Shown here one piece after another: positions 26,327 through 58,184 of a stretch of 64,000 bases of DNA. Origin of the DNA: Hyphomonas sp. Mor2 (GTDB lineage Bacteria > Pseudomonadota > Alphaproteobacteria > Caulobacterales > Hyphomonadaceae); NCBI RefSeq assembly GCF_001854405.1, contig NZ_CP017718.1, forward strand, positions 744,001-808,000, read 5' to 3'. The position numbers and the translations under genes are program-made. Numbering within the stretch: the stretch's first letter is position 1; every line of letters begins with the position of its first letter. The notes beneath the pieces were generated by a model, which saw only the letters and a program-made list of their open reading frames with translations, had not been told where the DNA came from and made no database searches.

Positions 26327-26328
26327 GA

Positions 26329-27638: not shown

Positions 27639-27654
27639 AAAAGATATATCATTT
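27639..27654. promoter_or_regulatory. Family-A operator, copy 1
   Basis: AAAAGATATATCATTT, a near-perfect palindrome centred on GATATATC, stands between the divergent methyltransferase (start 27564) and HapK-like (start 27686) genes. Identical 16-mers occur at 48133-48148 and, inverted, at 55386-55401; variants occur at 49108 and 55936. The likely binder is the GntR regulator at 48176-48976. Confidence 0.85.
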
Positions 27655-27685
27655 GACGAAAGAAGCCATAGGGAAGGTTCCGGAT

Positions 27686-28000
27686 ATGAGTACCAAGATT
27701 GTCGCACTGTTCAATTTGAAGCCCGGCGTCAGCGTCGAAGATTATGAAAACTGGGCCAAGACCAAAGACATTCCAACGGTCAACGGTCTGCAATCGGTGG
27801 ACGAGTTTGCCGTATTCAAATCGACCGGCCTTCTCGGCTCAGACGATAAACCGCCTTACGCCTACATCGAGACCATCGATGTGAATGACATGGACGGCTT
27901 TGGCGGTGAGGTGTCGACGGAGACGATGCAAGCCATTGCGGGTGAGTTTCAGGCGATGGCCGATGACCTCGTTTTCATCATGACTGACAAGCTCGGCTAG
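27686..28000 (+). CDS. HapK/REDY-like dimeric alpha-beta-barrel protein
   Basis: This 104-residue protein (MSTKIVALFNLKPGVSVEDYENWAKTKDIPTVNGLQSVDEF...) resembles the REDY-like HapK family, small ferredoxin-fold dimers related to the prodigiosin-pathway proteins RedY/HapK. Their biochemical role is poorly known; relatives bind or act on pyrrole-type or aromatic intermediates. No catalytic residue can be named. The ATG at 27686 sits after ggaag and 32 bases after the family-A operator. It is the first gene of a five-gene operon (HapK-like, SDR, deacetylase-fold, VOC lipoprotein, CMD). Confidence 0.65.
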   Translation: MSTKIVALFNLKPGVSVEDYENWAKTKDIPTVNGLQSVDEFAVFKSTGLLGSDDKPPYAYIETIDVNDMDGFGGEVSTETMQAIAGEFQAMADDLVFIMTDKLG

Positions 28001-28009
28001 GGGGCGTTC

Positions 28010-28846
28010 ATGGGCAGATTTACCGGCAAAACCGCCGTCATTACCGGTTCCGGCCGACGCAAGGGCCTGGGCGAGGCGATCGCAAAACGCCTGGCGGAAG
28101 ACGGCACAAATATTGTCATCTCCGACATTGGGGCGCCGCGCGACGAGGCAACGGGAGCTGAGCATATCGGTTCAACCGATGAAATGGAGGCGATCGCTGC
28201 GGATATGCGCGCACTGGGCGTTCAATCCTCGACCAAGGTCTGTGACGTGCGTTCACTGGAAGATGTCCGTGGGCTCGCTCAACATGCCGTCGACACGCAT
28301 GGTGGGCTGGATATCTGGGTAAACAATGCAGGCATCGGCTATATCATGAAGCCGCTTCTGGAGGTGACCGAAGACGATTGGCGCGCTGTGATCGATGTGA
28401 ATCTGACGGGTGCCTTTTTTGGTGTGAAGGCTGCGGCGGAGGCAATGGTCAAGCAAGGCAAGGGCGGACGGATCATTAATATCGCGTCGCAAGCGGCGAA
28501 ATCCGGCTTCCCTCATGCCCAGGCCTACACGTCCTCCAAGCACGGCCTGGTGGGTCTTGCCCGCTCGGCAGCCGTGGAACTCGGCGAGCACAAAATCACG
28601 GTCAATAATGTCTGTCCCAACCATGTCACGACCGGTCTCGGTGCCTGGCAGAATGAATATTTCTCCAAAGTCGTCGGCGCGGCGTCAGTGGACGAGTATC
28701 TCGAAGCCATGGCCGCGCGCATTCCGATGGGGCGTCCGGGGCTGCCGGAAGACACCGCCAATGCCGTGGCTTTTCTATGTTCGGACGAAGCGAATTACAT
28801 CACTGCCGAAAGCATGAACGTATCGGGCGGGGAGGAGCCACACTGA
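28010..28846 (+). CDS. Short-chain dehydrogenase/reductase
   Basis: The 278-residue classical SDR has a cofactor motif TGSGRRKGLGEAIAKRL, a slightly unusual glycine-rich loop with an RRK insertion. NNAG is at about residue 105, the catalytic Ser is in INIASQAAKSGFPHAQ, and the Tyr-Lys pair is YTSSK. An acidic residue after the second strand (ISDIGAPRDE) suggests NAD(H) preference. It would oxidise an alcohol or reduce a ketone in the island's pathway. It overlaps the next gene by one base (TGATG). Confidence 0.88.
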   Translation: MGRFTGKTAVITGSGRRKGLGEAIAKRLAEDGTNIVISDIGAPRDEATGAEHIGSTDEMEAIAADMRALGVQSSTKVCDVRSLEDVRGLAQHAVDTHGGLDIWVNNAGIGYIMKPLLEVTEDDWRAVIDVNLTGAFFGVKAAAEAMVKQGKGGRIINIASQAAKSGFPHAQAYTSSKHGLVGLARSAAVELGEHKITVNNVCPNHVTTGLGAWQNEYFSKVVGAASVDEYLEAMAARIPMGRPGLPEDTANAVAFLCSDEANYITAESMNVSGGEEPH

Positions 28847-29751
28847 TGGCCTTGCCTGCTGACCCTGCACCGAAGGATTTTTCCTGGCCGAACGGTGCGA
28901 AACTGGCGCTTTCGATTGTCGTCAATGTCGAAGAAGGTGCTGAGCGGCGGATTGATGAAGGCGACAAACGGCCGGAGCCGGTCGATGAACTTGGCGCCGT
29001 TCCGGGCAAGCCGATCCGCATCCATGGCAACGAAAGCAATTACCAATATGGCATCAATCGCGGCGCACCGCGAATTATCAAACTGCTAGACAAGGCGAAA
29101 GTGAACGCCACCTGGACCGTCTGCGGGCAGGCGCTTCAGAAAGCTCCCTGGCTTGCCAAAGCGATCGTCGATCGCGGTGATGAGCCGTGCAATCATGGGC
29201 ACAAATGGGCGTTCACGGCGTTCATGGATGAGGATGAAGAAACCGCCTTTATTCAGAAGGGCACAGACTCCATCGCAGAGACTTGCGGACGTCGGCCGGT
29301 CGGCTGGCTGTCGCGTTATCTGCACACCGACATCACTCGGCGCATCCTGAAAGAGCAGGGCTATCTCTACCATATGGACGACTATTCCGACGATTTCCCG
29401 TATTGGGCGGATGTCGAGATGAAGGATGGCTCGACCGAGCCCATGGTCATTCTGCCTTATGCGATTGATTCCAATGACATGAAGTTCTGGCTCAGCCCCA
29501 GCTTCACGCCGGACATGTGGCTGCAATATGCCAAGAACACCTTCAACTGGCTGCATCGCGAAGCTCAGGAAGAGGGGGCGCGGATGATGTCGCTTGGCCT
29601 GCACTTGCGGATTATCGGTCGGCCAGGGCGGATCGATGCGTTCCAGCATTTCCTCGACCACGTGCGTGCGCACAAGGATGTCTGGGTCGCGACGCGGGAA
29701 GAAATCGCGCAGCACTTTGCGGACAATGTGCCTTCAGGAGAAAATTCATGA
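28846..29751 (+). CDS. PuuE/NodB-type polysaccharide-deacetylase-fold hydrolase, paralogue 1
   Basis: The 301-residue protein belongs to the carbohydrate-esterase-4-fold group that includes PuuE allantoinases and cyclic-imide hydrolases, more than to true chitin deacetylases. Visible marks are the WPNGAKLALSIVVNVEEGAE start, the metal-binding-region motif ExCNHGHKWAF, and the closing GLHLRIIGRPGRIDAFQHFLDHV, which matches PuuE-like proteins. There is no signal peptide, so it is cytoplasmic. It is one of three divergent paralogues in this island. Known relatives open cyclic amides; the true substrate here is unknown. ATG 28846 overlaps the SDR stop. Confidence 0.8.
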   Translation: MALPADPAPKDFSWPNGAKLALSIVVNVEEGAERRIDEGDKRPEPVDELGAVPGKPIRIHGNESNYQYGINRGAPRIIKLLDKAKVNATWTVCGQALQKAPWLAKAIVDRGDEPCNHGHKWAFTAFMDEDEETAFIQKGTDSIAETCGRRPVGWLSRYLHTDITRRILKEQGYLYHMDDYSDDFPYWADVEMKDGSTEPMVILPYAIDSNDMKFWLSPSFTPDMWLQYAKNTFNWLHREAQEEGARMMSLGLHLRIIGRPGRIDAFQHFLDHVRAHKDVWVATREEIAQHFADNVPSGENS

Positions 29752-30380
29752 GATCGGTCTTAATCGCTGCGACAGCCGCGCTTTTTCTCGGCGGATGCGT
29801 CATTATCGAAGGCGATGACCTCGCCCGCGAAATTCAACGCGAACGCGCAGCGGCCACAGCCGCAGACGCGGAAATCGTCGCGCCCGCTGTCGAGGCAAAT
29901 CCACTTGATCTGCGCCGAACCACGCTTGTCGTGCGCGACATTGAAAAGTCGCTTGCGCTGTATCGTGATGCGCTCGGCATGACGGTCGAGTATGATCAGG
30001 AACTGACCTCGCCCGGGCTGGCCATGCGCTATGGTGCCGACGGGGAGAACCGATCACGCCTCGTTCTGCTGAAAGCCAATGACAGTTTCATCGGGATGCT
30101 TGGTCTCTGGCAGTTCCTCGATCAAACCGATCAGGATCTCGCCGAGCCGGACGCTGCGGATTTCACGCCCGGTGAGATCGTGCTGCTGTTCAACTCCAAG
30201 ACACTCGACGTCACCTTCCCGGCGGCCGCAGCGGCACCCGGTGTGACGATAATCGGAGAGCCGAAAGAACGCCGGTATCCATCGCCTGCCGGGGATATCG
30301 TCGTGATGGTGTCGATGCTGGTGGATAATGACGGACATACGATTGAGCTCAATCAGATTGTCTCCGATCCCAGACAATGA
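29748..30380 (+). CDS. Lipoprotein carrying a VOC (glyoxalase/dioxygenase-fold) domain
   Basis: The 210-residue precursor has a lipoprotein signal MRSVLIAATAALFLGGC (Cys17 acylated). A charged linker follows, then a VOC domain from about residue 60 (LRRTTLVVRDIEKSLALYRDALGMTVEYDQELTS...). VOC proteins are metal-dependent lyases, isomerases or dioxygenases and are normally cytoplasmic; this one should sit in the periplasm tethered to a membrane. Metal ligands cannot be assigned with certainty; the family's final Glu may be in HTIELNQI. It starts on the last bases of the previous gene (ATGA), and the next gene again overlaps by four. Confidence 0.8.
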   Translation: MRSVLIAATAALFLGGCVIIEGDDLAREIQRERAAATAADAEIVAPAVEANPLDLRRTTLVVRDIEKSLALYRDALGMTVEYDQELTSPGLAMRYGADGENRSRLVLLKANDSFIGMLGLWQFLDQTDQDLAEPDAADFTPGEIVLLFNSKTLDVTFPAAAAAPGVTIIGEPKERRYPSPAGDIVVMVSMLVDNDGHTIELNQIVSDPRQ

Positions 30381-30934
30381 CCCGACTGTCGCCTCTTTCC
30401 TTGGATCAGGTCGATCCCGAAACGCGCCAGATGATCGAGAATGCCGAAGCCTTAATGGGCTTTGTCCCGAATGACGCCTTGGTGATGGCGCGTCATCCTG
30501 CGCTCACCAAGGCCATGTGGGGCTTGGTCGCGGCCGTCTATGGGCCTGGCAAGGTGAATAATGGTCTGAAGCGCCTGGTTGGCGAAGCAGCGAGCAAGGC
30601 GGCCGGTTGTTTCTACTGTTCGGCCCATGCCGCTCATGGCGCCCGCGAACAGGGGGTGGCGCAGGAAAAGATTGATGCCGTCTGGAGCTTCGAGGACAGC
30701 CCTCTGTTTACAGAGGCGGAGCGCGCGGCGATCAATCTGGCGATGAAGGCCGGGCGGGTCCCGAACGAAACCGAGGATGAAGACTTCGATCGGCTGCGTG
30801 CAAATTTTTCAGAAGATGAAATCACCGAAATCGTCGCGGTGATCGCGATGTTTGGTTTCCTGAATCGATGGAATACGACGCTCGGGACAACGCTTGAGCC
30901 CGTGCCGCTTACGAGCGTCGAGGGACTGATCTAA
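30377..30934 (+). CDS. Carboxymuconolactone decarboxylase / AhpD-like protein
   Basis: The 185-residue all-helical protein has the AhpD-type redox motif AGCFYCSAHAAHGA (Cys-x2-Cys with the following His). This places it among peroxidase-related CMD proteins rather than true gamma-carboxymuconolactone decarboxylases. Such proteins reduce peroxides or keep a thiol partner reduced. As the last gene of the operon it may protect flavin or oxygenase chemistry in the pathway. It overlaps the VOC lipoprotein gene (ATGA). Confidence 0.82.
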   Translation: MTRLSPLSLDQVDPETRQMIENAEALMGFVPNDALVMARHPALTKAMWGLVAAVYGPGKVNNGLKRLVGEAASKAAGCFYCSAHAAHGAREQGVAQEKIDAVWSFEDSPLFTEAERAAINLAMKAGRVPNETEDEDFDRLRANFSEDEITEIVAVIAMFGFLNRWNTTLGTTLEPVPLTSVEGLI

Positions 30935-30954
30935 GTCGCCCGACAAAAGTCTAT

Positions 30955-30983
30955 TTGACCTGCGCTTTGGTTCGCACTAATTT
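30955..30983 (+). promoter_or_regulatory. Promoter of the CitE-MaoC-CoA operon
   Basis: TTGACC (30955-30960), exactly 17 bases, then TAATTT (30978-30983) gives a good sigma-70-type promoter. The -10 box overlaps the left end of the family-B operator (30979-30996), so a bound repressor would block RNA polymerase directly. Transcription would begin about 30990, 18 bases before the CitE start. Confidence 0.7.
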
Positions 30984-30996
30984 GTCCGGACAAATT
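30979..30996. promoter_or_regulatory. Family-B operator, copy 1 (perfect 18-bp palindrome)
   Basis: AATTTGTCCGGACAAATT is a perfect inverted repeat, placed over the -10 element of the promoter of the CitE-MaoC operon. A second copy with one arm mismatch is at 38356-38373, between the divergent CoA-transferase/GntR and MmgE operons. This links the two by one regulator, most likely the GntR protein at 36316-37029. Confidence 0.88.
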
Positions 30997-31007
30997 CCGG
31001 AATCCTG

Positions 31008-31832
31008 ATGACACTCACCTATAAATCTTTGCTCTTTGTGCCGGGCGCGCGGCCGGATCGCTTCGACAAGGCGGCGGCCAGCGGCGCCGATACGATCATT
31101 ATCGACCTTGAGGACGCAGTGCTGCCGGATCAGAAGACCGAAGCCCGCGCAGACGCCCTCGGCTGGTTGGCGCATCGCGGCGATGTCAGGGCAGGTGTGC
31201 GCATCAACAGCCCGCGAACGGCCGAAGGCTGCGCCGACATTGCAGCGCTTGCAGTGTCTGGGTGTTCCCCGGACTTCGTCATGGTGCCGAAAGCCGAAAC
31301 CGGTATCGACATGGAGATTGTCGGCGAAGCGCTCGGCCATGGCGCTCCGCTGATCGCCGTGATCGAAAGTGGCCGCGGCTTGAGACGCGCGTTCGACATT
31401 GCCAGGCAATCCAGTGCCGGCGTTCTGTTCGGTGGCGCCGACTATAGTGCCAGCATCAATGCAGACTTATCCAACTGGGACGCCATGATCGTCGCGCGCG
31501 GCACAATCGCAGGCGCCTGCGGCGCGGCGGGCATACCGGCCTATGATGTGCCCTATCTGGACGTCAAGGATACGGCCGGGCTCAGCGAACAGACTCGCAA
31601 ATCCAAGGCGATGGGTTTCTCCGGTCGCACTTGTATTCACCCGGCACAAGTCGAGGCGGTGAACGCGGTATTTGCGCCTAGCCCTGCAGAAATCCTGGAA
31701 GCCAAGGCGATTATCAAGGCGCTGGAAGACTCCAAAGGTGGCGCGGTGCTGCACAAAGGAAAACTCGTCGACCGCCCGATCATTCTGGCGGCACAAAGAA
31801 CCCTCGCCCAGGCGGGCGAAGAGAGAGGATAG
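31008..31832 (+). CDS. CitE-like CoA-ester lyase (HpcH/HpaI family)
   Basis: This 274-residue TIM-barrel protein of the citrate-lyase-beta/malyl-CoA-lyase family cleaves or forms 3-hydroxyacyl-CoA thioesters such as citramalyl-, malyl- or methylmalyl-CoA. Typical segments are SLLFVPGARPDRFDKAAASGADTIIIDLEDAV, the Mg/CoA region FVMVPKAETGIDMEIV, LFGGADYSASI, and the C-terminal GRTCIHPAQVEAVN. With the adjacent MaoC hydratase and CoA-transferases it forms the set used for itaconate/mesaconate-type C5 acids (Ccl-Ich-Ict), but also for other branched acids. First gene of the family-B operon. Confidence 0.85.
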   Translation: MTLTYKSLLFVPGARPDRFDKAAASGADTIIIDLEDAVLPDQKTEARADALGWLAHRGDVRAGVRINSPRTAEGCADIAALAVSGCSPDFVMVPKAETGIDMEIVGEALGHGAPLIAVIESGRGLRRAFDIARQSSAGVLFGGADYSASINADLSNWDAMIVARGTIAGACGAAGIPAYDVPYLDVKDTAGLSEQTRKSKAMGFSGRTCIHPAQVEAVNAVFAPSPAEILEAKAIIKALEDSKGGAVLHKGKLVDRPIILAAQRTLAQAGEERG

Positions 31833-31834
31833 AC

Positions 31835-32356
31835 ATGGTTCAGAACTGGAAAGAGGTCGGCCCCAATCGCTACCGCGAAACCTTTGGGCGCTATTTCGAA
31901 GACTTTCATGAAGGCGATACTTATGAGCATCGTCCCGGCAAGACCGTCACCGAATATGACAATCACATGTTCACGCTGCTGACGCTGAACACTCACCCGA
32001 TGCACTTTGATGCAGAGTTTGCCGCGGCTTCGGAATTCAAGAAGAACCTGGTCGTTTCGCCGTACACGCTGGCGCTCTTGATCGGCATGAGCGTGACCGA
32101 TTGCTCGCAAAAGGCGATTGCAAATCTTGGCATGGACGAGGTGAAGTTCACCGCCCCAGTCTTCGCCGGCGACACGCTGTATGCCGAGAGCGAAGTACTC
32201 GGCAAGCGCGAGAGCAAATCGCGCCCCGGTCAAGGCATCGTCACCATTGTCACCCGCGGGTTTAATCAGGACGGCACAATGGTGTGCACGTTCAAACGAA
32301 ACATGTTGATCCCGTCCCGCGGCCAGGCCGTCGAGGACAAGGTTGGGAATTACTAG
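31835..32356 (+). CDS. MaoC-family enoyl-CoA hydratase (itaconyl-/mesaconyl-CoA hydratase-like)
   Basis: This is a 173-residue single hot-dog-fold hydratase. The (R)-hydratase catalytic Asp/His pair is likely in EYDNHMFTLLTLNTHPMHFDAEFAA, followed by the conserved VVSPYTLALLIGMSVTD and DEVKFTAPVFAGDTLYAESEVL. This version resembles RipB/Ich-type hydratases that act on branched C5 acyl-CoAs. It starts two bases after the CitE stop. The hydratase and lyase pair suggests hydration of an unsaturated acyl-CoA followed by C-C cleavage to acetyl-CoA plus a keto acid. Exact substrate not provable. Confidence 0.82.
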   Translation: MVQNWKEVGPNRYRETFGRYFEDFHEGDTYEHRPGKTVTEYDNHMFTLLTLNTHPMHFDAEFAAASEFKKNLVVSPYTLALLIGMSVTDCSQKAIANLGMDEVKFTAPVFAGDTLYAESEVLGKRESKSRPGQGIVTIVTRGFNQDGTMVCTFKRNMLIPSRGQAVEDKVGNY

Positions 32357-32365
32357 GAGGCCAGT

Positions 32366-33565
32366 ATGGCAGACACTGCAGTTTTGACGAACGAGGCGGC
32401 CGAAGAAGAGCGCCTGATGCTGGACGCCATCGAAAAATGGCTGGAGCAGCGCGTGCGCCCGGTCGCGATGGAACTCGAACATGCGAATGAGTATCCGTTG
32501 GACCTGGTCGAGGACATGAAAGAGCTGGGCCTGTTCGGCGCGCTGATCGATCCTGAGTATGGCGGTCTCGGTTTGACCGCATCGACCTATTCCAAGATCG
32601 TGATGCTGATCTCGGAAGAGTGGATGAGCCTGTCGGGCATTTTCAACTCGCATCTGATGATGGCTCTGATTGTCCAGAAATTCGGCACGGACAAACAGAA
32701 AGAATACTGGCTGCCAAAGTTCGCGACGGGTGAAATTCGCGGTGGCCTGGCGCTGACCGAGCCGAACGCCGGGACGGACCTGCAGGCGCTGACCACCAAG
32801 GCGACTCGTGTGGGGGACAAATATGTTGTCGAAGGCGCCAAGACCTGGATTTCAAACTCGATCGAAGGTCAGTGCGTCGCCTTGTTATGCAAGACCGACC
32901 CAGGCGCCCAGCCGCGCTATAAAGGCATGTCTATGCTGATCACACAGACGAAAAACCCGGAGACCATGGAAGATCTTCCCGGCGTCACGAATGGCAACAA
33001 GCTGCAGAAGCTCGGCTATAAGGGCATCGATAGCGGCGAGCTGATCTATACAGGGTATGAGTGTGACGCCGAGCTGAGCCTGGTTGGCGGCGAAGAGGGG
33101 CAGGGCTTTTTCATGGCCACCGGCGGGCTCGAGATTGGCCGCATCAACGTTGCGGCCCGTTCGGTCGGTATCGCCCGGCGTGCGCTGAAAGAGAGCATTG
33201 CTTATGCTCAGACGCGCCAGACCATGGGCAAGCCGATCTGTGAGCATCAGGCGATCCAGTTGAAACTCGGTGAAATGGGGGCAAAAACCCGCGCCGCAGA
33301 ACTGCTGGTGGAAGATGCTGCCCGCGCCTATGACACGGGCGCTCGTGTCGATATGGAGGCCGGTATGGCGAAGTACTTCGCTTCTGAAACCGCCGTAGAG
33401 GTGGCGACCGAAGCGATGCGCATCCATGGCGGCTATGGCTACTCGAAGGAGTATGTGATCGAGCGCCTGTATCGCGATGCGCCGCTCATGTGTATCGGTG
33501 AGGGGACGAACGAGATGCAGCGGATCATCATTTCCAAACAGCTCGTGAAGCGGAACCCGATCTGA
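32366..33565 (+). CDS. Acyl-CoA dehydrogenase
   Basis: The 399-residue flavoprotein introduces a double bond in an acyl-CoA. The N-terminal helical domain is followed by the FAD-binding strand domain (GGLALTEPNAGTDLQALTTKATRVGDKYVVEGAKTWISN) and the C-terminal helical domain. The latter has YAQTRQTMGKPICEHQAIQLKLGEM and IHGGYGYSKEYVIERLYRDAPLMCIGEGTNEMQRIIISK, the last holding the family's flavin-site Gly and the Glu of EGTNE. The signature is nearest to short/branched-chain enzymes. In this operon it may make the substrate for MaoC. It overlaps the first CaiB gene by one base. Confidence 0.9.
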   Translation: MADTAVLTNEAAEEERLMLDAIEKWLEQRVRPVAMELEHANEYPLDLVEDMKELGLFGALIDPEYGGLGLTASTYSKIVMLISEEWMSLSGIFNSHLMMALIVQKFGTDKQKEYWLPKFATGEIRGGLALTEPNAGTDLQALTTKATRVGDKYVVEGAKTWISNSIEGQCVALLCKTDPGAQPRYKGMSMLITQTKNPETMEDLPGVTNGNKLQKLGYKGIDSGELIYTGYECDAELSLVGGEEGQGFFMATGGLEIGRINVAARSVGIARRALKESIAYAQTRQTMGKPICEHQAIQLKLGEMGAKTRAAELLVEDAARAYDTGARVDMEAGMAKYFASETAVEVATEAMRIHGGYGYSKEYVIERLYRDAPLMCIGEGTNEMQRIIISKQLVKRNPI

Positions 33566-34719
33566 TGACGGAGCTTCCCCTCAAGGGCATACGGATCCTC
33601 TCCGTCGAACAGTATGGCGCCGGTCCGTATGGAACAATGTTGCTGGCAGATCTCGGCGCGGAGGTCATCAAGATTGAAGATCCCGGCCGCGGCGGCGACG
33701 TTTCCCGTTCGGTCGGGCCGTATATGCTGGGAGAGGGAGACAGCGAGTTCTTTCAGACGTTCTCGCTCGGCAAGAAGTCGGTCACACTGGATCTGAAGTC
33801 GCCGGATGGGCGCGAGCAATTTGAATCCCTGGTCAAAACGGCGGATGCGGTCGCGAACAATCTTCGGGGCGACCAGCCAGGTAAGCTTGGCCTGACCTAT
33901 GAGGCACTGAAAGCCGCGAATCCGAAAATCGTCTGTGCGCACCTCTCCGCCTATGGTCGCAAGTCCGAACGCGCTGCCTGGCCGGGCTATGATTATCTCA
34001 TGCAAGCTGAAGCGGGCTTCATGTCGATGACCGGAGAGCCAGACGGACCACCCGTGCGGTTTGGGCTCTCCATGGTCGATTTTCATACAGGCAGTCATCT
34101 GGCGACGGCCCTGCTTGCGGGGGTCTTGGGAGCCACAAGAACCGGCGAGGGCTGCGATGTCGATGTCTGTCTGTTCGACACAGCACTTCATCAGCTGTCC
34201 TATCCCGCCACCTGGTATCTCAACCAGAAGCACGTCACGGGCCGCCTGCCGCGCGGCGCGCATCCCTCGATCGCACCGAGCCAACTGGTGAAAACACGAG
34301 ACGGCTGGGGACTGCTCATGTGCCAGACACCGAAATTCTGGACCCTCTGGTGTCAGCTGACCGGAAGCGACCTCGCCGAAGATAAGCGCTTTGCGACGAT
34401 CCCGGCTCGCCGAGAGAACCTGGACGCGCTGAGCGAAGCCGTCGATGCTGTGATGATGGCGAAATCGACCAATGAGTGGCTGGATATTCTCGGCGGTCAT
34501 GTGCCGTTTGCGCCCGTGCTGGACATTGGAGAAGCGCTCGACAGCGAATATGTTGCCAGCGTCGAAATGACATCGAAGGTGAACCATCCTGACGTGCCAA
34601 ACGGATTGCGAACCCTGAGCTCGCCCTTTCGCGTCAATGGCGAGCGTCCATACCTTTCCCGCGCACCGAAAATGGGCGAACAGAGTGCGGCTCTGTTGTC
34701 CAAGAAGGAAAATGTATGA
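33565..34719 (+). CDS. Class III (CaiB/BaiF/Frc) CoA-transferase, paralogue 1
   Basis: The 384-residue family III CoA-transferase moves CoA between carboxylic acids through an aspartyl-CoA thioester. The N-terminal LKGIRILSVEQYGAGPYGTMLLADLGAEVIKIEDP is characteristic. The catalytic Asp is most likely the one in GLSMVDFHTGSHLATALLAG, followed by CDVDVCLFDTALHQLSY. It is translationally linked to the acyl-CoA dehydrogenase before it and to the second CaiB protein after it. The acceptor acid is unknown. Confidence 0.88.
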   Translation: MTELPLKGIRILSVEQYGAGPYGTMLLADLGAEVIKIEDPGRGGDVSRSVGPYMLGEGDSEFFQTFSLGKKSVTLDLKSPDGREQFESLVKTADAVANNLRGDQPGKLGLTYEALKAANPKIVCAHLSAYGRKSERAAWPGYDYLMQAEAGFMSMTGEPDGPPVRFGLSMVDFHTGSHLATALLAGVLGATRTGEGCDVDVCLFDTALHQLSYPATWYLNQKHVTGRLPRGAHPSIAPSQLVKTRDGWGLLMCQTPKFWTLWCQLTGSDLAEDKRFATIPARRENLDALSEAVDAVMMAKSTNEWLDILGGHVPFAPVLDIGEALDSEYVASVEMTSKVNHPDVPNGLRTLSSPFRVNGERPYLSRAPKMGEQSAALLSKKENV

Positions 34720-38295: not shown

Positions 38296-38355
38296 TTTTT
38301 GACCGGTGGCGTAAGTTTCTGGTTCACTCAACCACAAACTTTGTGTAAGCACCAG

Positions 38356-38373
38356 AATATGTCCGGACAAATT
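38356..38373. promoter_or_regulatory. Family-B operator, copy 2, overlapping the MmgE start codon
   Basis: The core TATGTCCGGACAAA with flanking AA and TT matches copy 1 (30979-30996) except for one arm base. The ATG of the plus-strand MmgE gene (38359) is inside the palindrome. On the minus strand a TTGTCC -35 within the operator and TACACA 17 bases on could drive the divergent CoA-transferase/GntR operon. Similarity to copy 1 continues beyond the palindrome (AAATTCCGGAA versus AAATTTCGGAA). Confidence 0.82.
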
Positions 38374-47437: not shown

Positions 47438-47451
47438 GGGGTGAGAGTCTC

Positions 47452-48114: not shown

Positions 48115-48127
48115 GCCATTCTCCTTC

Positions 48128-48153
48128 GATTTAAAAGATATATCATTTAAATC
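48128..48153. promoter_or_regulatory. Family-A operator, copy 2 (extended 26-bp palindrome)
   Basis: The core AAAAGATATATCATTT (48133-48148) is flanked by further symmetric bases (GATTT on the left, AAATC on the right), so 24 of 26 positions obey the palindrome. This is the most extended copy. It lies between the GntR gene stop (48176) and the ribosome-binding site of the membrane-protein/flavin-oxidase operon, where a bound protein would block transcription. Confidence 0.9.
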
Positions 48154-48175
48154 GGTTGTGGCGAGGGGCAGATTG

Positions 48176-48976: not shown

Positions 48977-49107
48977 TTGGTCGTTCCGTATTCACAGAGG
49001 GCTAGCTTTATCGCGCCCGCGGCATTTGGCAAAGCAAGTAAGATACCGAAGGCGAATCTGAGCCTGTGTGACCGTTTGTCTGTTTGTCCCAGACTGGCAT
49101 AGACCTA

Positions 49108-49123
49108 TAAAGATATATCAAAT
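49108..49123. promoter_or_regulatory. Family-A operator, copy 3
   Basis: TAAAGATATATCAAAT keeps the GATATATC core and AT flanks but lacks full arm symmetry. It lies 18 bases before the DUF1838 lipoprotein gene and about 130 bases from the divergent GntR start, so it could control both. Confidence 0.75.
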
Positions 49124-49140
49124 GAATTCTGGAGGATTTC

Positions 49141-50010: not shown

Positions 50011-50762
50011 CCGACCGTCGGGTGATCGAGCTCGATCAACTCGTACCAGGTCGACATATAGCCGCCAACGCCGCCTTGGACGAAGATGAAATCGTCCTTG
50101 GTCACCCACATGTCATAGGCGGGGTGCTGGGTGCCGCCCATGCCCGGACCTTCATCATCGACATAACGGAAATGGTAGCAATCGAATGTGCCGGCCTCGA
50201 CCGTGACCGTCTCGTCGCCGACATATTCCAGGCCGATATTGACTTCTGAAACCAGCGGCGGTGTCGCTCCACGATGATCCGGCGAGGGCAGGAACACGCG
50301 AACATTGCGTTTCATCGGCCCGCCGGAGCGATCTATGACGCGGCACATCTGCGCATCGCCGATAATCGGATGCGTGCCAAAGCCGTCAAACGCGCCCTCG
50401 GTTTCGACCCGCTGCGACAGGCGCCCGATGGAGGGGCCATAGCTCTCGCATTCGATCGATCCGGACCGGCCCTCTTCAAGATTGAACTTGAACCAGCCCG
50501 AGCCCATGAATTCGTCGCCAACGGTCAGGCGGACATGGCAGTCCATCGGATTGAAATTCTCATCCGTGGAATAGACGATATCGCGCATCACGGTTGGGTC
50601 AGGCTCATGGATCTCACAATGCGCCCGCACCGTCATCTTGCCGTCGCTGTGATGGGTAATGTTGAAGATCTCGTCGCCGCGCACCTGGTCCAGCATTTCC
50701 GGCTTCTTTGAGGTGTAGCGAATGCGGCCACGAATGCGGCGATGTTTCATCCGGTCAGTCAT
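50007..50762 (-). CDS. Unknown conserved-looking protein, DUF3108-like fold possible
   Basis: The 251-residue cytoplasmic protein (no signal) reads as a beta-rich fold: RRIRGRIRYTSKKPEMLDQVRGDEIFNITHHSDGKMTVRAHCEIHEP and later TVTVEAGTFDCYHFRYVDDEG. The alternating pattern and the VEAGTFDCYHF segment recall DUF3108/DUF6134-type lipocalin-like barrels, but I cannot assign it. It is the last gene of the seven-gene operon that starts at operator copy 4, and it converges on DUF1838, overlapping by four bases. Confidence 0.65.
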   Translation of the reverse strand: MTDRMKHRRIRGRIRYTSKKPEMLDQVRGDEIFNITHHSDGKMTVRAHCEIHEPDPTVMRDIVYSTDENFNPMDCHVRLTVGDEFMGSGWFKFNLEEGRSGSIECESYGPSIGRLSQRVETEGAFDGFGTHPIIGDAQMCRVIDRSGGPMKRNVRVFLPSPDHRGATPPLVSEVNIGLEYVGDETVTVEAGTFDCYHFRYVDDEGPGMGGTQHPAYDMWVTKDDFIFVQGGVGGYMSTWYELIELDHPTVG

Positions 50763-51181
50763 GCATCCACGCCTTTCGAGAGATCATTGGTTGGACCGCC
50801 GGCTGCGCGGTGCGCGATGGCCTCGGCGCTTTCCCAGATCTTGCCGCCAATGTACTGTCCGATCGAATTGGAGAACTCGTTATATGTAATGGTCTCATAC
50901 ATGCCGGAAGTGATGTAAGGATCGCCCTCCATCAGCGCCTTGGCATCGGCGAGATCATCGGCCAGTACCAGGAAGACGGACCCGACCAGCGCTTCACCGC
51001 CTGGCTCACGAATAGGGCCAGCGGTCACATACCGGGTCCAGTATTTCTCAACATGATCCAGATGGCCCTTCAGGTGGGTGGCACGGGGTTCAGCGCTGCC
51101 CGGTCCATCGCGGCAGATGACCAGATAGCAGGTCTTGTCCGGGCGCGGCACGAAAGGCGGGATTTGCGGAAAGTCAGTCAT
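50759..51181 (-). CDS. YciI-like dimeric alpha-beta-barrel protein
   Basis: The 140-residue protein (TCYLVICRDGPGSAEPRATHLKGHLDHVEKYWTRYVTAGPIREPGGEALVGSVFLVLADDLADAKALMEGDPYITSGMYETITYNEFS) matches the YciI fold. The conserved His is in RATHLKGHLDHV and the Asp in MEGDPY. Family members include 5-chloro-hydroxyhydroquinone dehydrochlorinase (TftG) and putative muconolactone-isomerase-like enzymes. It may catalyse a dehydration or isomerisation in the pathway. It overlaps the following gene by four bases. Confidence 0.85.
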   Translation of the reverse strand: MTDFPQIPPFVPRPDKTCYLVICRDGPGSAEPRATHLKGHLDHVEKYWTRYVTAGPIREPGGEALVGSVFLVLADDLADAKALMEGDPYITSGMYETITYNEFSNSIGQYIGGKIWESAEAIAHRAAGGPTNDLSKGVDA

Positions 51182-51192
51182 GACAGGAACTC

Positions 51193-52308
51193 CTATTTCA
51201 GAACGCCACCCTCAACCAACCGATCAATTACGGCTTGTTGTTGGGCGATGGCGTCATTGCGTTCGATCATTTGTGCATCAGGCGTACGATTGGCGGGCGC
51301 GTGATTGGCCTGGCCGTAAGCGCTCGCAAACGCCGTATTGGGCAGGCGTGACAGAGTGTTCGTCATGCCGGTCTTGCGACGGGTATCGCGCAGCGCGCCT
51401 ATGTCGAGCACGGCGTTGGCATTGATTGTCTCGCCCTGATTGGCCTCTGCGAGCGAGCGGCCATACCAATCGAGGACGATAGACATTCCGTCGGTTGAGG
51501 CTGCCGGGACCGGGGTGCCGATGATTCCAGCGCTGTTGGCTGAAACGACATAGGCAATATTCTCAATCGCGCGCGCCTTCTTGGTAATATGTTTCGGGGT
51601 GAGAGTTGGCGCGCCCACTTCGCTGGTCGGATGGCAGAATATCTCCGCGCCCTTGAACGCCTGCATCCGGGCAATCTCCGGATAGAGGATCTCCTCACTC
51701 GCAATCGTGCCGAGCGCGCCGATCTCTGTCTCGGCGACGGGAAACACGGCCTCTTCGCCATAGATGTCGAGATACTGATCCCAGACATCATACGGGCTTG
51801 GCGTGTAGAGTGATATCATCCGTCGATAGCGCAACACCGTGTCGCCATTTGGCGCGTAGATGACGTTGGACTGGAAATAGAGCTCCGGAAAATTCGGGTC
51901 CGTTTCGTAATGGTTGGAGCAGAGATAGATTCCGAATGTTTGCGCCAGGCTGGCCAGCTTGTCCGGAAACGCGCCCTGCATCGGAATGGCGGCCTTGTCC
52001 TGCCATTCCTCCCGGGTCTCGCCGAGCGGGAAACCTGTCATCCAGTATTCGGGCAGCACAACCAGCTTCGTATCATAGCCGTTGAAGCCTTTCAGGAAGC
52101 CCCTGGCCGCACCGATCTGTCCGCGCACGCGATTGATCGCGCGGTCCATGCGGGCGTGCGCATCTTCAATGGAGCTGTCTTGATTGACCGCATCGCAAAC
52201 GGTTTGCAGGGCGAGGGCGGTATAGCGCATGGGCGAAGATCCTTGAGCGAGGGCCGGGGCAGCAATCGCCGCCGCGCCGGTGCTGAGCAGAAATGTGCGG
52301 CGATTCAT
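51193..52308 (-). CDS. Exported nitrilase-fold protein with substituted catalytic residues
   Basis: The 371-residue protein starts at ATG 52308 with a twin-arginine signal (MNRRTFLLSTGAAAIAAPALAQG). The carbon-nitrogen-hydrolase domain follows and is closest in layout to aliphatic amidase/nitrilase types. The first catalytic residue, Glu87 (VVLPEYWMTG), is present. Where AmiE-type enzymes have YRK, this has Y161-R-R163, so the catalytic Lys is Arg. Where the nucleophile Cys should be (C-x-x-x-x-[FY]-P-E) it has S204 in IASEEILYPEIAR. It may be inactive, or use Ser. It overlaps the deacetylase-fold gene by four bases. Confidence 0.82.
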   Translation of the reverse strand: MNRRTFLLSTGAAAIAAPALAQGSSPMRYTALALQTVCDAVNQDSSIEDAHARMDRAINRVRGQIGAARGFLKGFNGYDTKLVVLPEYWMTGFPLGETREEWQDKAAIPMQGAFPDKLASLAQTFGIYLCSNHYETDPNFPELYFQSNVIYAPNGDTVLRYRRMISLYTPSPYDVWDQYLDIYGEEAVFPVAETEIGALGTIASEEILYPEIARMQAFKGAEIFCHPTSEVGAPTLTPKHITKKARAIENIAYVVSANSAGIIGTPVPAASTDGMSIVLDWYGRSLAEANQGETINANAVLDIGALRDTRRKTGMTNTLSRLPNTAFASAYGQANHAPANRTPDAQMIERNDAIAQQQAVIDRLVEGGVLK

Positions 52309-53216
52309 GACATGCCCTCCCGGAAGGCGGTGCAACTGTCCGCTGCCGTCTGAATGGAGAGCCCATCCACTTGGCTGAGCGCGTCGAGGACGTGCCGCAC
52401 AGCCTTGATGCGGAAGGGTTGGCCAAGCACGTAGGGCGTCATGGTGAAGGCAAAGGCGCTGGCGCCTTCCTTGTCATGACTGTCGACGTGATAGTGGGCG
52501 GTTTCGATAATCTGTGCGGCCCATTCTTCCTCGGACTGAGAGCGATCAATGAGCAATTTGAAATCACCCAGCTCGCCATAGTGGGGCAGCGCCCAGATCG
52601 CCCCGGATCTGGTTGTGAAGGGTAATGGGCGTTGATCGGCTTCCCAGTCCAGGCAGGTGCTAAAGCCGGCGGCGGCGAGCAGTTCGAGTGTGCGATAGCT
52701 TTCATTACGCGCCGGGCTCATCCAGGTTGTGGCGTCTGGGAAGGTGGCGCGCGTCTCGTCAATGAGCGCGCACTCGTCCGCCTCACTCAAGCCGTCATGA
52801 TGGATGTGGGCGGTCGATATGCCATGGGCGGCGATCTCGTGTCCGGCGGCGCTGATCGCTTCAATCAGAGGGGGATAGCGTTTCGCCACTTCCGCATTCA
52901 CAGCGAACGTGGCCTGGATGCCGCGGGCCTGAAATTCGCGCATCAGGCGAAAGATCCCGACGCGATTCCCGTAATCGCGCACAGTGAAGTGGCGTAGGTC
53001 CGGGTAGGGCGTTTTCATCGCGCCTGGGTGTTTGAAGGGTACGGCAGGCGGGTTGAGCGGAAAGAACTCAACCGGAACAATGATCGATGCGATCGATCTG
53101 TTGCCGTCTTTCAACGCGATTGGATGGCGGCGATCAGCGGGATCCCAATCGTAATACGAATTGTCGAACCCATGCTGGCGATGAGGATAGATCAGATAGT
53201 CGTCGGGCAGGGGCAT
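52305..53216 (-). CDS. PuuE/NodB-type polysaccharide-deacetylase-fold hydrolase, paralogue 2
   Basis: The 303-residue protein has the CE4-type fold in the PuuE branch: SIASIIVPVEFFPLNPPA, RDYGNRVGIFRLMREFQARGIQATFAVNAEVAKRYPPLIEAISAAGHEIAAHGISTAHIHHDGLSEADE, and SPARNESYRTLELLAAAGFSTCLDWEADQRP. The HEIAAHG segment has the metal-site His spacing. No signal peptide. ATG 53216 overlaps the DinB stop by one base. It is quite unlike the other two paralogues, so it probably acts on a different ring or intermediate. Confidence 0.82.
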   Translation of the reverse strand: MPLPDDYLIYPHRQHGFDNSYYDWDPADRRHPIALKDGNRSIASIIVPVEFFPLNPPAVPFKHPGAMKTPYPDLRHFTVRDYGNRVGIFRLMREFQARGIQATFAVNAEVAKRYPPLIEAISAAGHEIAAHGISTAHIHHDGLSEADECALIDETRATFPDATTWMSPARNESYRTLELLAAAGFSTCLDWEADQRPLPFTTRSGAIWALPHYGELGDFKLLIDRSQSEEEWAAQIIETAHYHVDSHDKEGASAFAFTMTPYVLGQPFRIKAVRHVLDALSQVDGLSIQTAADSCTAFREGMS

Positions 53217-53722
53217 CAGAAATAAGCCTCCGGCATGACTTGCAGATCTGTATCCTGCGGCTTGGCGCCTGCCGCGGTCAACATCGCATGGACCTGACCG
53301 CGATGATGGGTCTGGTGATTGAAGACCTGCATCAGGCACATGGCGCGGTCGCGCCTTTGCTCGGCGCCGGACGTGTCGCGATAGACAAGATCACCGTCGA
53401 TCTGGTCCTGTGTGACTTTATCAACCCAATCGATGAAACGCCTGTCCGCCGTATTGCGCAGAGCGCGCAATTTATCCCAATCCTCGGCCAGAGTGGTCGA
53501 TCCGGCGATGCCTGTGCCAGGGGGCTCCCAGTCGCTGATGCGGCTCATCCAGATCTGATCCGCCCACAGAATATGCGATAGCGTGGCATGGATGGAGCCG
53601 AAGAAACTGCCGCGATCCTGGCGGCGGTCGGCGTCACTCAATGTGTTTGCGGCTTCGTACATGCTGTCATTTTGCCAGCGATTGTGCCGCGCCATACGTT
53701 GGAGGTAGCCGGGTTGGATCAT
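53216..53722 (-). CDS. DinB/YfiT-family metal-dependent helical protein
   Basis: This 168-residue four-helix bundle has the three-His metal site pattern of DinB proteins: His in FFGSIHATLSHILWADQIWMSRI and the pair in MQVFNHQTHHRGQVHAMLTAAG. Known relatives act as thiol transferases or mycothiol/bacillithiol-dependent isomerases (for example maleylpyruvate isomerase). An isomerase or thiol-transfer step in aromatic or ring breakdown fits the context. It is not the E. coli DinB polymerase despite the name. Overlaps both neighbours. Confidence 0.88.
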   Translation of the reverse strand: MIQPGYLQRMARHNRWQNDSMYEAANTLSDADRRQDRGSFFGSIHATLSHILWADQIWMSRISDWEPPGTGIAGSTTLAEDWDKLRALRNTADRRFIDWVDKVTQDQIDGDLVYRDTSGAEQRRDRAMCLMQVFNHQTHHRGQVHAMLTAAGAKPQDTDLQVMPEAYF

Positions 53723-54657
53723 GGCGCAAACCCCGTGCCGCCGGCGGCGACGCCGCGAGTGGCGACATCTTCCAGCGTCTGATCATAATAGCTGTCGCGA
53801 TAGAATTCCGCGATCTCCGCGCCTGTCGTGAACCAGACATCATCGCGGTGCGCGCAGATGTGCTTCAGGGCCTCTTCGAAGACGCGCAAGCGATGCGGCT
53901 GGCTGACCAGATAGGCATGCAGCGGAATGCACATCACCGTGCCGGATTGCTCGCCTTCCTCCAGCAATTGATCGAAATGGCGGATCAACAGGTCCGTATA
54001 GCGCTGGGGGCTCCAGCCCTGGACCGAGTAGGTGATGACGTCATTGACTTCCAGAGAGTAAGGCATCGAGACGAGCTTGCCTGTCCTGGTCTTGATCGGC
54101 TGGGGCTGGTCATCCTGGAACAGGTCGCACGTATACCAGAAGTCATATTCTGCGATGAGGTCGAGCGTCTTCTCAGTATGCGTCAGCGCGGGCGCGAGAT
54201 AACCTCGAATGCGCTTACCGGTCGCTTGTTCGACGGTGCGGATGGAATCCTCCAGCACCGCGCGTTCCTGCGCTTCATCCATGCCATAGGAGTAACGCGT
54301 ATTGTAAATGCCATGGGAGAAGAATTCCCAGTCTCGGGCGTTCACCGCTTCGATGATTTCGGGGTGATGATCGACAAGACCGATCGAGAGTGAAATCGAT
54401 CCCCGCAGGGCATACTTGTCGAACAGATCCATCATCCGCCAGTGGCCGACCGTATTGCCCCAGGTTCGCTGAGAATACGCGACCACGTCGGGATTGCCGC
54501 GCGGCCATCCCGGACGCTTGTCATTGTGCGGTGGCTGGAACTCGTAATACTCGATATTGGGGGCGATCCAGAAGGCCAGTTTCTTGCCGCCCGGCCAGAC
54601 AATTTTTGGACGGCCTTCATATGGCCAGTAATCGTAGAGATTCGGATCCGCGTGCAT
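53719..54657 (-). CDS. PuuE/NodB-type polysaccharide-deacetylase-fold hydrolase, paralogue 3
   Basis: The 312-residue protein is nearest in layout to PuuE-like proteins: RPKIVWPGGKKLAFWIAPNIEYYEF, TWGNTVGHWRMMDLFDKYALRGSISLSIGLVDHHPEIIEAVNARDWEFFSHGIYNTRYSYGMDEAQER, and GTVMCIPLHAYLVSQPHRLRVFEEALKHI. It has no signal peptide. It is coded between DinB and the isochorismatase-fold hydrolase with 4- and 1-base overlaps. A cyclic-amide opener followed by an amidohydrolase is a known logic for imide breakdown; here it is inference. Confidence 0.82.
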   Translation of the reverse strand: MHADPNLYDYWPYEGRPKIVWPGGKKLAFWIAPNIEYYEFQPPHNDKRPGWPRGNPDVVAYSQRTWGNTVGHWRMMDLFDKYALRGSISLSIGLVDHHPEIIEAVNARDWEFFSHGIYNTRYSYGMDEAQERAVLEDSIRTVEQATGKRIRGYLAPALTHTEKTLDLIAEYDFWYTCDLFQDDQPQPIKTRTGKLVSMPYSLEVNDVITYSVQGWSPQRYTDLLIRHFDQLLEEGEQSGTVMCIPLHAYLVSQPHRLRVFEEALKHICAHRDDVWFTTGAEIAEFYRDSYYDQTLEDVATRGVAAGGTGFAP

Positions 54658-55355
54658 CAGCCCTGATACCCCGCAATGGCGTCATGCACCTCGCTGACCG
54701 GGACCACATCGGCATACTTGATCAGCAAGTCCGTCAGGTTCGCAAAATGATAGCTCTCATGCTTGTCCGCAACACATTCGATAGGCACGATGGTGCGATA
54801 GCCGTGGCTCAGACTGTCCACTGCGGTCGCCCGGACACAGCCTGAGGTCGATCCGCCGGTGATGACCAACGTATCGACTTTGTGCCAGGTCAGGAAGCTC
54901 TGCAGCGGCGTTTCGAAGAAAGCCGAGGGCATGCGCTTCGTGTAAACCGCATCCACCGTCTCATCGATCGTGACGCGGTCATCAAATTCGTGGCGGTCGG
55001 ACCCGTATTTGATGTTCTGAAGGCTGTCTGGCGTGTCCGTCCGCGTGCCCCAGACCCCCGCATCAGCGGCATTGTCCATGTACGCGACATGGGTCCAGAC
55101 GACCGGCAAGCCTTTGGCGCGCGCGGCGTTCGAGATGGCATCGATATGCTCCATCTGACGCGGATCGGTGATGTAACTGGTCTTGGGAAACAGGTCGGGG
55201 CGCGTATAGGCCTTTTGCGGATCGACATTGATGATGGCGAGCTTGTCGCCAAAGCCAAACCGGGCGCGGGCAGGATTGGCGCGGACCTCCTCAAAGATTT
55301 CCCGTGCCGTTTTATCGGACGTGACCATAGTCGGTTTGGATAGATCGATCGTCAT
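54657..55355 (-). CDS. Isochorismatase-fold cysteine hydrolase (N-carbamoylsarcosine amidase-like)
   Basis: The 232-residue hydrolase has the complete Asp-Lys-Cys triad: Asp in LAIINVDPQKAYTRP, Lys in AVYTKRMPSAF, and Cys in ITGGSTSGCVRATAVDSLSHGYRTIVPIECVAD. The VWTHVAYMD and GGSTSGCV segments place it with N-carbamoylsarcosine, maleamate and related amidohydrolases. ATG 55355 (MTIDLSKP) is chosen because the longer frame to 55433 runs through the operator and the divergent start. It is the first gene of a seven-gene operon under operator copy 4. Confidence 0.88.
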   Translation of the reverse strand: MTIDLSKPTMVTSDKTAREIFEEVRANPARARFGFGDKLAIINVDPQKAYTRPDLFPKTSYITDPRQMEHIDAISNAARAKGLPVVWTHVAYMDNAADAGVWGTRTDTPDSLQNIKYGSDRHEFDDRVTIDETVDAVYTKRMPSAFFETPLQSFLTWHKVDTLVITGGSTSGCVRATAVDSLSHGYRTIVPIECVADKHESYHFANLTDLLIKYADVVPVSEVHDAIAGYQG

Positions 55356-55385
55356 TTCTTTTCCGCTTGTCTTTGCGCCTATTTC

Positions 55386-55401
55386 AAATGATATATCTTT
55401 T
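55386..55401. promoter_or_regulatory. Family-A operator, copy 4
   Basis: AAATGATATATCTTTT is the exact reverse complement of copies 1 and 2. It lies between the divergent starts of the seven-gene hydrolase operon (55355) and the DUF1330 lipoprotein (55432), so one site can control both. Confidence 0.88.
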
Positions 55402-55431
55402 ATCAGAAGTCCAGACGCCAAGGAGGTTTTC

Positions 55432-55881
55432 ATGAAGGGATTTATCGCAGGGACTCTACTTGGTCTATCTGGCGGGATCGGAATCGCGGCGTGTGTCGGC
55501 TTACAGCCGCAAACTGCAGTCGGCGAGGAAGTGCTCGCGGTACAGGCCGAGCCGCCGGCTTACATGATCGTTCTCGGTGAAGTCTTTGATCGCCCGGCAT
55601 TCATGGAAGGGTATGCCGCGAAGCTTCCCCCCCTCTATGAGCAGTTTGGCGGGCACTATATTGCGATTGGTGGCGGGCCCGGCATCGAAGTGCTGGAGGG
55701 CGATTACGCGCCCCCCAGCTATGTGGTCAGCAAATGGCCAAACGCCCAGGCCGCGCGCGATTTCTGGGCCAGTGAGGGCTATGACGTCTTGCGACGCGCC
55801 CGGATCGATAATGCCTGGGGCGACTTCGATGTCTTGCTGGTCAGCGGCCTTCCTGAAGCGACGCCCGATAAGGCTGAGTGA
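55432..55881 (+). CDS. DUF1330-type lipoprotein
   Basis: The 149-residue precursor has a lipoprotein signal ending GIAA-C21 and a DUF1330-like dimeric alpha-beta-barrel domain (AYMIVLGEVFDRPAFMEGYAAKLPPLYEQFGGHYIAIGGGPGIEVLEGDYAPPSYVVSKWPNAQAARDFWASEGYDVLRRAR). DUF1330 proteins are normally small cytoplasmic proteins; an exported, lipid-anchored form is unusual. A strong aggagg ribosome-binding site precedes the ATG. It is the third alpha-beta-barrel protein of the island with HapK and YciI types. Confidence 0.82.
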   Translation: MKGFIAGTLLGLSGGIGIAACVGLQPQTAVGEEVLAVQAEPPAYMIVLGEVFDRPAFMEGYAAKLPPLYEQFGGHYIAIGGGPGIEVLEGDYAPPSYVVSKWPNAQAARDFWASEGYDVLRRARIDNAWGDFDVLLVSGLPEATPDKAE

Positions 55882-55902
55882 CAAAATTATCACAGCCCTC
55901 AA

Positions 55903-55920
55903 TCAAATGACCGGACAAAT
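55903..55920. promoter_or_regulatory. Degenerate family-B operator half-site upstream of the TonB receptor
   Basis: The right half GGACAAAT (55913-55920) is identical to the strong family-B operators, and CCGG gives the same centre, but the left arm (AATCAAATGA) matches poorly. It sits just upstream of family-A copy 5. It could allow cross-control by the second regulator, or be a relic. Confidence 0.4.
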
Positions 55921-55935
55921 CTCGCCATCTTCTCG

Positions 55936-55951
55936 AAATGGTATATCATTT
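55936..55951. promoter_or_regulatory. Family-A operator, copy 5
   Basis: AAATGGTATATCATTT has perfect AAAT/ATTT arms and one substitution (G for A) in the GATATATC core. It lies 47 bases ahead of the TonB-dependent receptor start, in the only intergenic region of that operon. Confidence 0.8.
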
Positions 55952-55997
55952 AAATAGGGACATCCGGCCCGGACCGAAATTTGAGGAGATCTCGGCA

Positions 55998-58181: not shown

Positions 58182-58184
58182 TCG

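Follow-up and report, generated by a model that had tools for sequence, protein, structure and literature searches.

The closest described relatives of the system reported here are NagR/YvoA from Bacillus subtilis and the Streptomyces protein DasR. Both are HutC-type GntR repressors that act on dre sites and share their architecture, a GntR domain joined to a UTRA domain, with the regulator studied here. In the NagR complex, the guanine at operator position -4 (G-4) is read by Arg48 and G-5 is read by Arg38, according to the sections of PMC4333415 considered. The canonical HutC operator, NyGTMTAKACNy, is a usual rather than a universal trait of the subfamily, with exceptions listed in the sections of PMC4494728 that were compared. 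Here we analyze a stretch of 64,000 nucleotides ("the window"), corresponding to positions 744001-808000 of the single 3,628,091-bp contig NZ_CP017718.1 of Hyphomonas sp. Mor2, which carries five copies of a palindromic sequence around the gene for a HutC-type GntR protein (48176-48976). We propose, with a probability of about 0.87, that this palindrome, AAAWGATATATCWTTT, is the operator of that protein.

Distribution of the palindrome in the window and the genome

The 16-mer AAAAGATATATCATTT occurs in three exact copies in the window, at 27639 and 48133 on the forward strand and at 55386 as its reverse complement, and near copies reside at 55936 (two mismatches) and 49108 (three mismatches). 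All five positions had been given correctly in the initial annotation of this DNA. A search of the window yielded nine strand-matches compared with a mean of 0.12 and a maximum of one in 100 shuffles, and the core GATATATC is present four times, with 0.43 copies expected. In agreement with the annotation, no copy with up to three mismatches was found in the window flanks outside 27639-55951. The palindrome around 48133, first described as 26 bp with 24 symmetric positions (48128-48153), extends a little further, to 28 bp (48127-48154) with 26 symmetric positions by our reading. The location of the sites in intergenic promoter regions, two of them divergent, was confirmed as far as the promoters are concerned; site 48133, however, falls inside an over-long open reading frame call (47452-48210), downstream of the site are a Shine-Dalgarno-like AAGGAG and an in-frame GTG (48114), and divergent genes flank not two but three sites (27639, 49108 and 55386). 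As had also been noted, sites 48133 and 49108 flank gntR. A putative operator is thus present at the regulator's own promoter as well as before neighboring operons, as expected for an autoregulated local regulon.

The genome-wide motif scan suggested with the initial annotation gave 34 strand-matches at up to three mismatches, while the reversed-pattern control gave 3 + 3. Nine places, each with three mismatches and without the GATATATC core, were dropped as background. Site 793108 (contig numbering) was kept despite three mismatches because it has the core, adjoins gntR and has counterparts in relatives. This leaves 14 clear sites, of which five belong to the window and nine lie elsewhere (280567, 283863, 283881, 286378, 289575, 300518, 730210, 771639, 792133, 793108, 799386, 799936, 1534923 and 2497527). 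All 14 are located at promoters: 12 are outside called genes, 792133 is in the over-long call mentioned above, and 1534923 covers two bases of a called TTG start codon, its core being located upstream of that codon. Non-coding DNA makes up 7.6% of the 155,003 bases examined, a set of stretches picked around the sites with genes from a simple gene caller, and the chance of finding 12 of 14 sites outside genes is p about 3e-12. A motif scattered through coding DNA was therefore rejected, since the clear sites are all at promoters. In the symmetrised matrix of the sites, AAAWGATATATCWTTT, all 28 half-sites carry G-4 and 27 of them carry A or T at -5. Two of the sites, 283863 and 283881 (L020:9864-9897), form tandem operators with centers 18 bp apart between divergent genes for a coenzyme A (CoA)-transferase and an enzyme resembling 3-hydroxy-3-methylglutaryl-CoA (HMG-CoA) lyase, and the same tandem pair is found in G016, G017, G018, G022 and G028.

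The distance from the site center to the target start is within 70 bp for 16 of 20 target starts and 82-140 bp for the other four, i.e., those of the methyltransferase gene (82.5 bp), e7939 (99.5 bp), a14969 (108.5 bp) and gntR itself (139.5 bp from the center of site 49108). These distances bear on two other explanations. The four distant starts would be compatible with a GntR protein that binds the sites and activates, or both represses and activates, which we consider unlikely, because the majority of the starts lie where a repressor would act and because the well-studied relative NagR is a repressor in the sections of PMC4333415 considered. The second explanation, that the motif is a promoter element such as the -10 region of an alternative sigma factor, draws on its AT-richness, its proximity to start codons and the TATA it contains. 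It appears very improbable, since the motif is palindromic, serves divergent promoters and follows a single GntR gene through the genomes of the family. In nine of the 20 promoters, moreover, the best -35-like hexamer starts with TTG, and the spacing between hexamer and core in these nine ranges from 17 to 40 bp; a -10 element at fixed spacing was rejected on these grounds. A sigma-70 scan of 47000-56100 was uninformative, with four promoter-like matches versus 4.3 expected.

Co-occurrence with the regulator and conserved targets

The phyletic pattern was established for 105 genomes of the family, with proteins at E < 1e-90 (58% identity or more) taken as close homologs of the regulator and matches to the strict pattern AWWDGATATATCHWWT taken as sites. 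A close homolog is encoded in 19 of these genomes and strict sites are present in 20, while the reversed control matched none (0/105). Strict sites occur in 18 of the 19 genomes with a close homolog versus 2 of the 86 without (Fisher p = 4e-17), and the corresponding figures are 16/19 and 1/86 (p = 5e-15) when at least three sites are required; as the genomes are related and not independent, both p values are only a guide. Within the host's genus sites are found in 7 of 29 genomes. The pair of site and regulator is patchy within genera, which argues against mere descent. The gene for the isochorismatase-fold enzyme, used as a pathway marker, is present in 24 of the 105 genomes, and of these marker-bearing genomes 15/16 have strict sites when the regulator is there and 2/8 when it is not.

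The island in the window encodes another UTRA-type GntR protein (36316-37029), which belongs to the same subfamily and could bind the palindrome in place of, or together with, the 48176 regulator. It is found in 15 of the 105 genomes, 14 of which have sites, and its gene is separated from the PrpD operon by a site in G041 and G045. We nevertheless consider its participation rather improbable. The protein is absent from six site-bearing genomes (G002, G003, G015, G032, G036 and G087), among them G087 with seven sites and 96% completeness, whereas G029 encodes it and has no strict site. In the host genome, no site is located near this second gene, while the 48176 gene is flanked by sites on both sides. 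As the main binder, the second GntR protein was rejected on account of the six site-bearing genomes that lack it.

By hand count, 44 of 52 sites in six relatives precede homologs of regulon or island genes: 10/10 in G045, 9/10 in G041, 9/10 in G078, 7/7 in G087, 4/5 in G062 and 5/10 in Hirschia (G033). Targets in Hirschia were assigned by tblastn, gene calls with the host codon model being poor there. The tenth G041 site was not counted; the gene that follows it encodes a relative, with 45% identity, of the alpha-beta hydrolase of the regulon. In G045, all ten sites lie within 1664688-1708174, and genes from the host's two main places are thus united in one 44-kb stretch. Parts of the gene set also surround the regulator in Alpha proteobacterium AAP38 (L086), Niveispirillum irakense (L111), Ponticaulis (L120) and Marinicaulis (L073), as well as in L101, a metagenome-assembled genome (MAG) labeled Methylocystis that groups with Brevundimonas.

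Several observations weigh against assigning the palindrome to this regulator. Half of the Hirschia sites (5/10) precede other genes, and two of the 52 sites in relatives (L174, L177) are inside a called gene, the call in L177 looking like a fusion that takes in the DUF1838 gene. Strict sites are absent from G047 despite a 58%-identical regulator, and G015 and G036 contain a single one each. Conversely, five sites occur in G002 (six matches with a looser pattern), where no regulator was found in an assembly that is 88% complete and consists of 290 contigs, and G032 combines two sites with only a 36%-identical homolog. The looser pattern also gives one to two matches each in the site-poor genomes G029, G034, G040 and G080, which are four of the eight marker-bearing genomes without the regulator, with 0-2 for its reversed control. 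In the wider order, at least one strict site is present in 58 of 398 sampled genomes, many of them with few, and those outside the family are not tied to the regulator; outside the family, the pattern is thus not exclusive to this regulon. The core reads GA..TC instead of the published HutC GT..AC, and of the 47 more distant homologs (about 43-54% identical) examined among the 80 named regulator loci, 41 gave no palindrome that qualified when the upstream 350 bp were searched; a GATATA-type palindrome was found in four (L113, L123, L127, L128) and another in two (L096, L100). Finally, co-occurrence alone is no proof because gntR and the pathway genes travel together.

A separate observation concerns genus g12, which belongs to another family of the order. 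Seven of its genomes (G106, G114, G122, G142, G153, G161 and G169) have three to four strict sites each, often GATATATCC, and in six of the seven two sites are exactly 1963 bp apart. Possibly, these sites belong to another regulon.

The regulator and its recognition residues

Both domains of the regulator are recognized by Pfam, the N-terminal GntR winged helix-turn-helix (HTH) with 76.1 bits (1.7e-21, cut-off 27) and the C-terminal UTRA ligand domain with 119.7 bits (1.1e-34, cut-off 23.8). The nearest chains in the PDB are 2ra5, NagR/YvoA and DasR. Among the best 80 of 413 regulator loci, the closest named ones are from Henriciella MAGs (four with 89-95% and a fifth with 58% identity) and one MAG labeled Hyphomonas (95%), followed by Hyphomonas polymorpha, Hirschia maritima and Parvularcula lutaonensis (70-76%). 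Judged by these identities, the host would probably be a member of Henriciella (Hyphomonadaceae). A broader pattern applied to these 80 loci gave 99 matches versus 10 on reversed sequence. With a relaxed criterion, 16 of the 19 loci with close homologs have a site 3' of the regulator gene, at a distance of up to 117 bp.

NagR Arg48 aligns with R59 of the regulator and NagR Arg38 with Q49. In alignment A1, which comprises 17 of the 30 regulator loci fetched, R59 is conserved in 17/17 sequences, and position 49 is occupied by Gln in 15 and by Glu in two. The arginine of the recognition helix that faces G-4 in HutC-type proteins is thus present, together with G-4 in every half-site. An arginine at HTH position 28 prefers G/C in the compared sections of PMC4494728, and we equate this position with NagR Arg38 and Q49. 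Both features of the motif, the retained G-4 and the A/T at -5, are those that the residues predict. The sites differ from the canonical HutC operator in their GATATATC core, in which G-4/C+4 and the spacing are kept and T-3/A+3 are changed. Taken together, phyletic pattern, gene position and recognition residues make the 48176 protein the best candidate binder and support the earlier idea of an uncharacterised regulon under its control.

No GATATATC palindrome was detected ahead of gntR in the loci examined from Brevundimonas and Maricaulales (48-54% identity). Eight of nine Brevundimonas/Phenylobacterium loci (L097, L099, L101, L103, L105, L107, L109 and L112) share a different, conserved upstream block, GTTGGTATAG(G/A)AATAGGTC, with GGTATAG(G/A)AATAGGTC in it, which is located no more than about 200 bp 5' of the gene for the gntR homolog of roughly 50% identity. 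The block is perhaps a diverged operator, and specificity may change with the protein.

We infer the following mode of action. In the ligand-free state, a dimer of the 48176 protein would occupy the palindrome at the promoters, in most cases no more than 70 bp 5' of the start codon, and block transcription. When the UTRA domain binds its ligand, probably the pathway substrate or one of its intermediates, the dimer would be released and about 50 genes across the genome would thereby be induced, including those for outer-membrane receptors, symporters and enzymes that open a nitrogen-containing ring. The induced enzymes would then break down, as CoA thioesters, the branched dicarboxylates formed by ring opening.

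Regulon genes, predicted pathway and known systems

With operon extents read by eye, the putative regulon spans five places in the genome and comprises about 50 genes. It is therefore wider than the island regulon of about 22 genes put forward initially. Sites do precede island operons and tie their genes together, with a count nearer 27-29 in the window, but nine further clear sites are found elsewhere, and not every island gene is included. None of the six genes between 36316 and 43647 (for the second GntR protein, an acetyl-CoA-hydrolase-like protein, two PrpD proteins, a CoA ligase and an amidase) has a site in the host; at the PrpD promoter, a site is found in G041, G045, Hirschia (G033) and G087. 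The features in the window are collected in Table 1.

Table 1 Predicted operators, regulator and regulon genes in the window.
Feature	Position	Strand	Context and support
Operator AAAAGATATATCATTT	27639-27654		between methyltransferase gene (26329-27564, -) and HapK-like operon (+); same position in G033, G041, G045, G078
Operator AAAAGATATATCATTT	48133-48148		core of the 28-bp palindrome, 5' of the membrane protein/oxidase operon (-)
Operator TAAAGATATATCAAAT	49108-49123		between gntR (-) and DUF1838 gene (+); same place in L057-L061, L063, G041, G045
Operator AAATGATATATCTTTT	55386-55401		between isochorismatase-fold hydrolase operon (-) and DUF1330 gene (+); isochorismatase-fold gene preceded by a site also in G041, G045, G078, G087
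Operator AAATGGTATATCATTT	55936-55951		5' of TonB receptor gene, which is preceded by a site also in G041, G045, G078, G087
HutC-type GntR regulator (GntR + UTRA), proposed repressor of all sites	48176-48976	-	Pfam
Methyltransferase + small gene	25964-27564	-	divergent from HapK-like operon; site kept in G033, G041, G045, G078
HapK-like operon, 11 genes	27686-36319	+	divergent from methyltransferase gene
Operon: small membrane protein (in-frame GTG start 48114), flavin adenine dinucleotide (FAD)-linked oxidase, aldehyde dehydrogenase, enoyl-CoA hydratase	43648-48114	-	
DUF1838 lipoprotein-like gene	49141-50010	+	predicted beta-rich (barrel-like) protein
Operon: isochorismatase-fold amidohydrolase (ATG 55355), two PuuE-like hydrolases, DinB, carbon-nitrogen hydrolase, YCII, gene with sub-threshold DUF3108 match	50007-55355	-	
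DUF1330 lipoprotein-like gene	55432-55881	+	
TonB-dependent receptor + glyoxalase-like gene	55998-59279	+	

The HapK-like operon encodes, in addition to the HapK-like protein, an SDR protein, a PuuE-like hydrolase, a glyoxalase-like protein, a CMD protein, a RipC/Ccl-like lyase, a RipB/Ich-like hydratase, an acyl-CoA dehydrogenase and two class III CoA-transferases; its last gene has a sub-threshold DUF3598 match only. Targets outside the window are genes for LeuC/LeuD-like proteins (280599-282610), a class III CoA-transferase, the HMG-CoA-lyase-like enzyme, a sodium symporter, a DUF1838 protein, a TonB receptor, two glyoxalase-like/ADH_N_2/alpha-beta hydrolase sets, a DUF1330 protein, an MFS protein and a second small membrane protein. 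Directly after the island, 59276-61519 encodes a product which we take, by eye, to resemble topoisomerase IV subunit A (ParC).

Two DUF1838 proteins belong to the gene set (window 49141-50010 and L020:12407-13327). The model of one of them is beta-rich with a predicted local distance difference test score of 81, the first 45 residues being under 50. Comparison of the model with the PDB gave no match at E <= 0.001 and template modeling scores, for those shown, of 0.30 or less (query length), and a sequence search of the PDB returned nothing better than E 0.039. The two small membrane-protein-like genes (window 47452-48114 and L024:8564-9256) each have their own site and no Pfam match at E <= 5.

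Our best guess for the pathway is that a cyclic imide or ureide is opened and that CoA-linked breakdown of dicarboxylates follows; the compound degraded probably contains nitrogen. Three hydrolases scored 232.8, 117.8 and 53.9 bits against PuuE (TIGR03212), below the cut-off of 424.6 for an allantoinase. The isochorismatase-fold enzyme, whose nearest solved structure is N-carbamoylsarcosine amidohydrolase, appears to have the Asp/Lys/Cys triad. Together with the PuuE-like hydrolases, it suggests opening of a cyclic imide or ureide with loss of ammonia or a carbamoyl group. The HMG-CoA-lyase-like enzyme passes its subfamily cut-off (290 vs 246 bits). Along with the LeuCD-like, CoA-transferase and RipB/RipC-like enzymes, it suggests hydration, CoA activation and cleavage of branched dicarboxylates. 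Against such a pathway stands the fact that the LeuD-like protein passes not only PRK01641 (229.6 vs 167) but also the leuD equivalog model (187.9 vs 116.25), and that the LeuC-like protein passes the 3-isopropylmalate dehydratase subfamily model PRK12466 (623 vs 531), albeit not the leuC equivalog model (453 vs 560.25). Elsewhere in the genome there is another gene of the LeuC-like kind (48% identity, open over 466 codons), so that the regulon copy need not serve leucine synthesis.

Haematinic acid and methylvinylmaleimide are oxidative fragments of chlorophyll, haem and bilins, and full mineralisation of such substituted maleimides is a more specific version of this pathway that we regard as a long shot. 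The PuuE-like imidases would open the ring and the isochorismatase-fold enzyme would remove ammonia. The LeuCD-like enzyme would then hydrate the dialkylmaleate, class III CoA-transferases would activate the product, and the HMG-CoA-lyase-like enzyme would split it into pyruvate and an acyl-CoA (glutaryl-CoA in the case of haematinic acid). The GntR protein would sense one of the pathway acids.

Searches of mostly open-access literature, which covered the motif, the domain set, imide pathways and the degradation of tetrapyrrole fragments, yielded no paper recognized as dealing with the motif or the regulon, and the conserved regulon is apparently undescribed so far. One short sequence ties about 50 genes at five places, many of them of unknown role, to the same set in other genera, and an uncharacterised alphaproteobacterial catabolic pathway thereby becomes testable as one unit.

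Among known pathways, itaconate degradation is related through w31835 and w31008, which score highest to RipB/Ich (239 bits) and RipC/Ccl (222 bits), respectively, both below the curated cut-offs of 340 and 375 bits. With NagR and DasR, the regulator shares sequence similarity over nearly its full length, G-4 with the matching arginine, and more than one site per genome. In contrast, its core is GATATATC and not GT..AC, Gln takes the place of the arginine that reads G-5, and the palindromes are near-perfect, while native dre sites are not perfectly palindromic in the sections of PMC4333415 considered. Moreover, the targets found here are not amino-sugar genes. The operators of the HutC subfamily in the compared parts of PMC4494728 are likewise A/T-rich palindromes with G/C at +/-4 and four bases between paired dinucleotides, located at promoters and divergons; GATATATC was not found in those parts, and relative to the consensus given there, A replaces T at -3 and T replaces A at +3. 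The palindrome of Hyphomonas sp. Mor2 thus appears to be a HutC-type GntR operator with an atypical GA..TC core and, if this is true, it extends the known range of HutC-type recognition to this core and to Gln instead of Arg as the reader of position -5.

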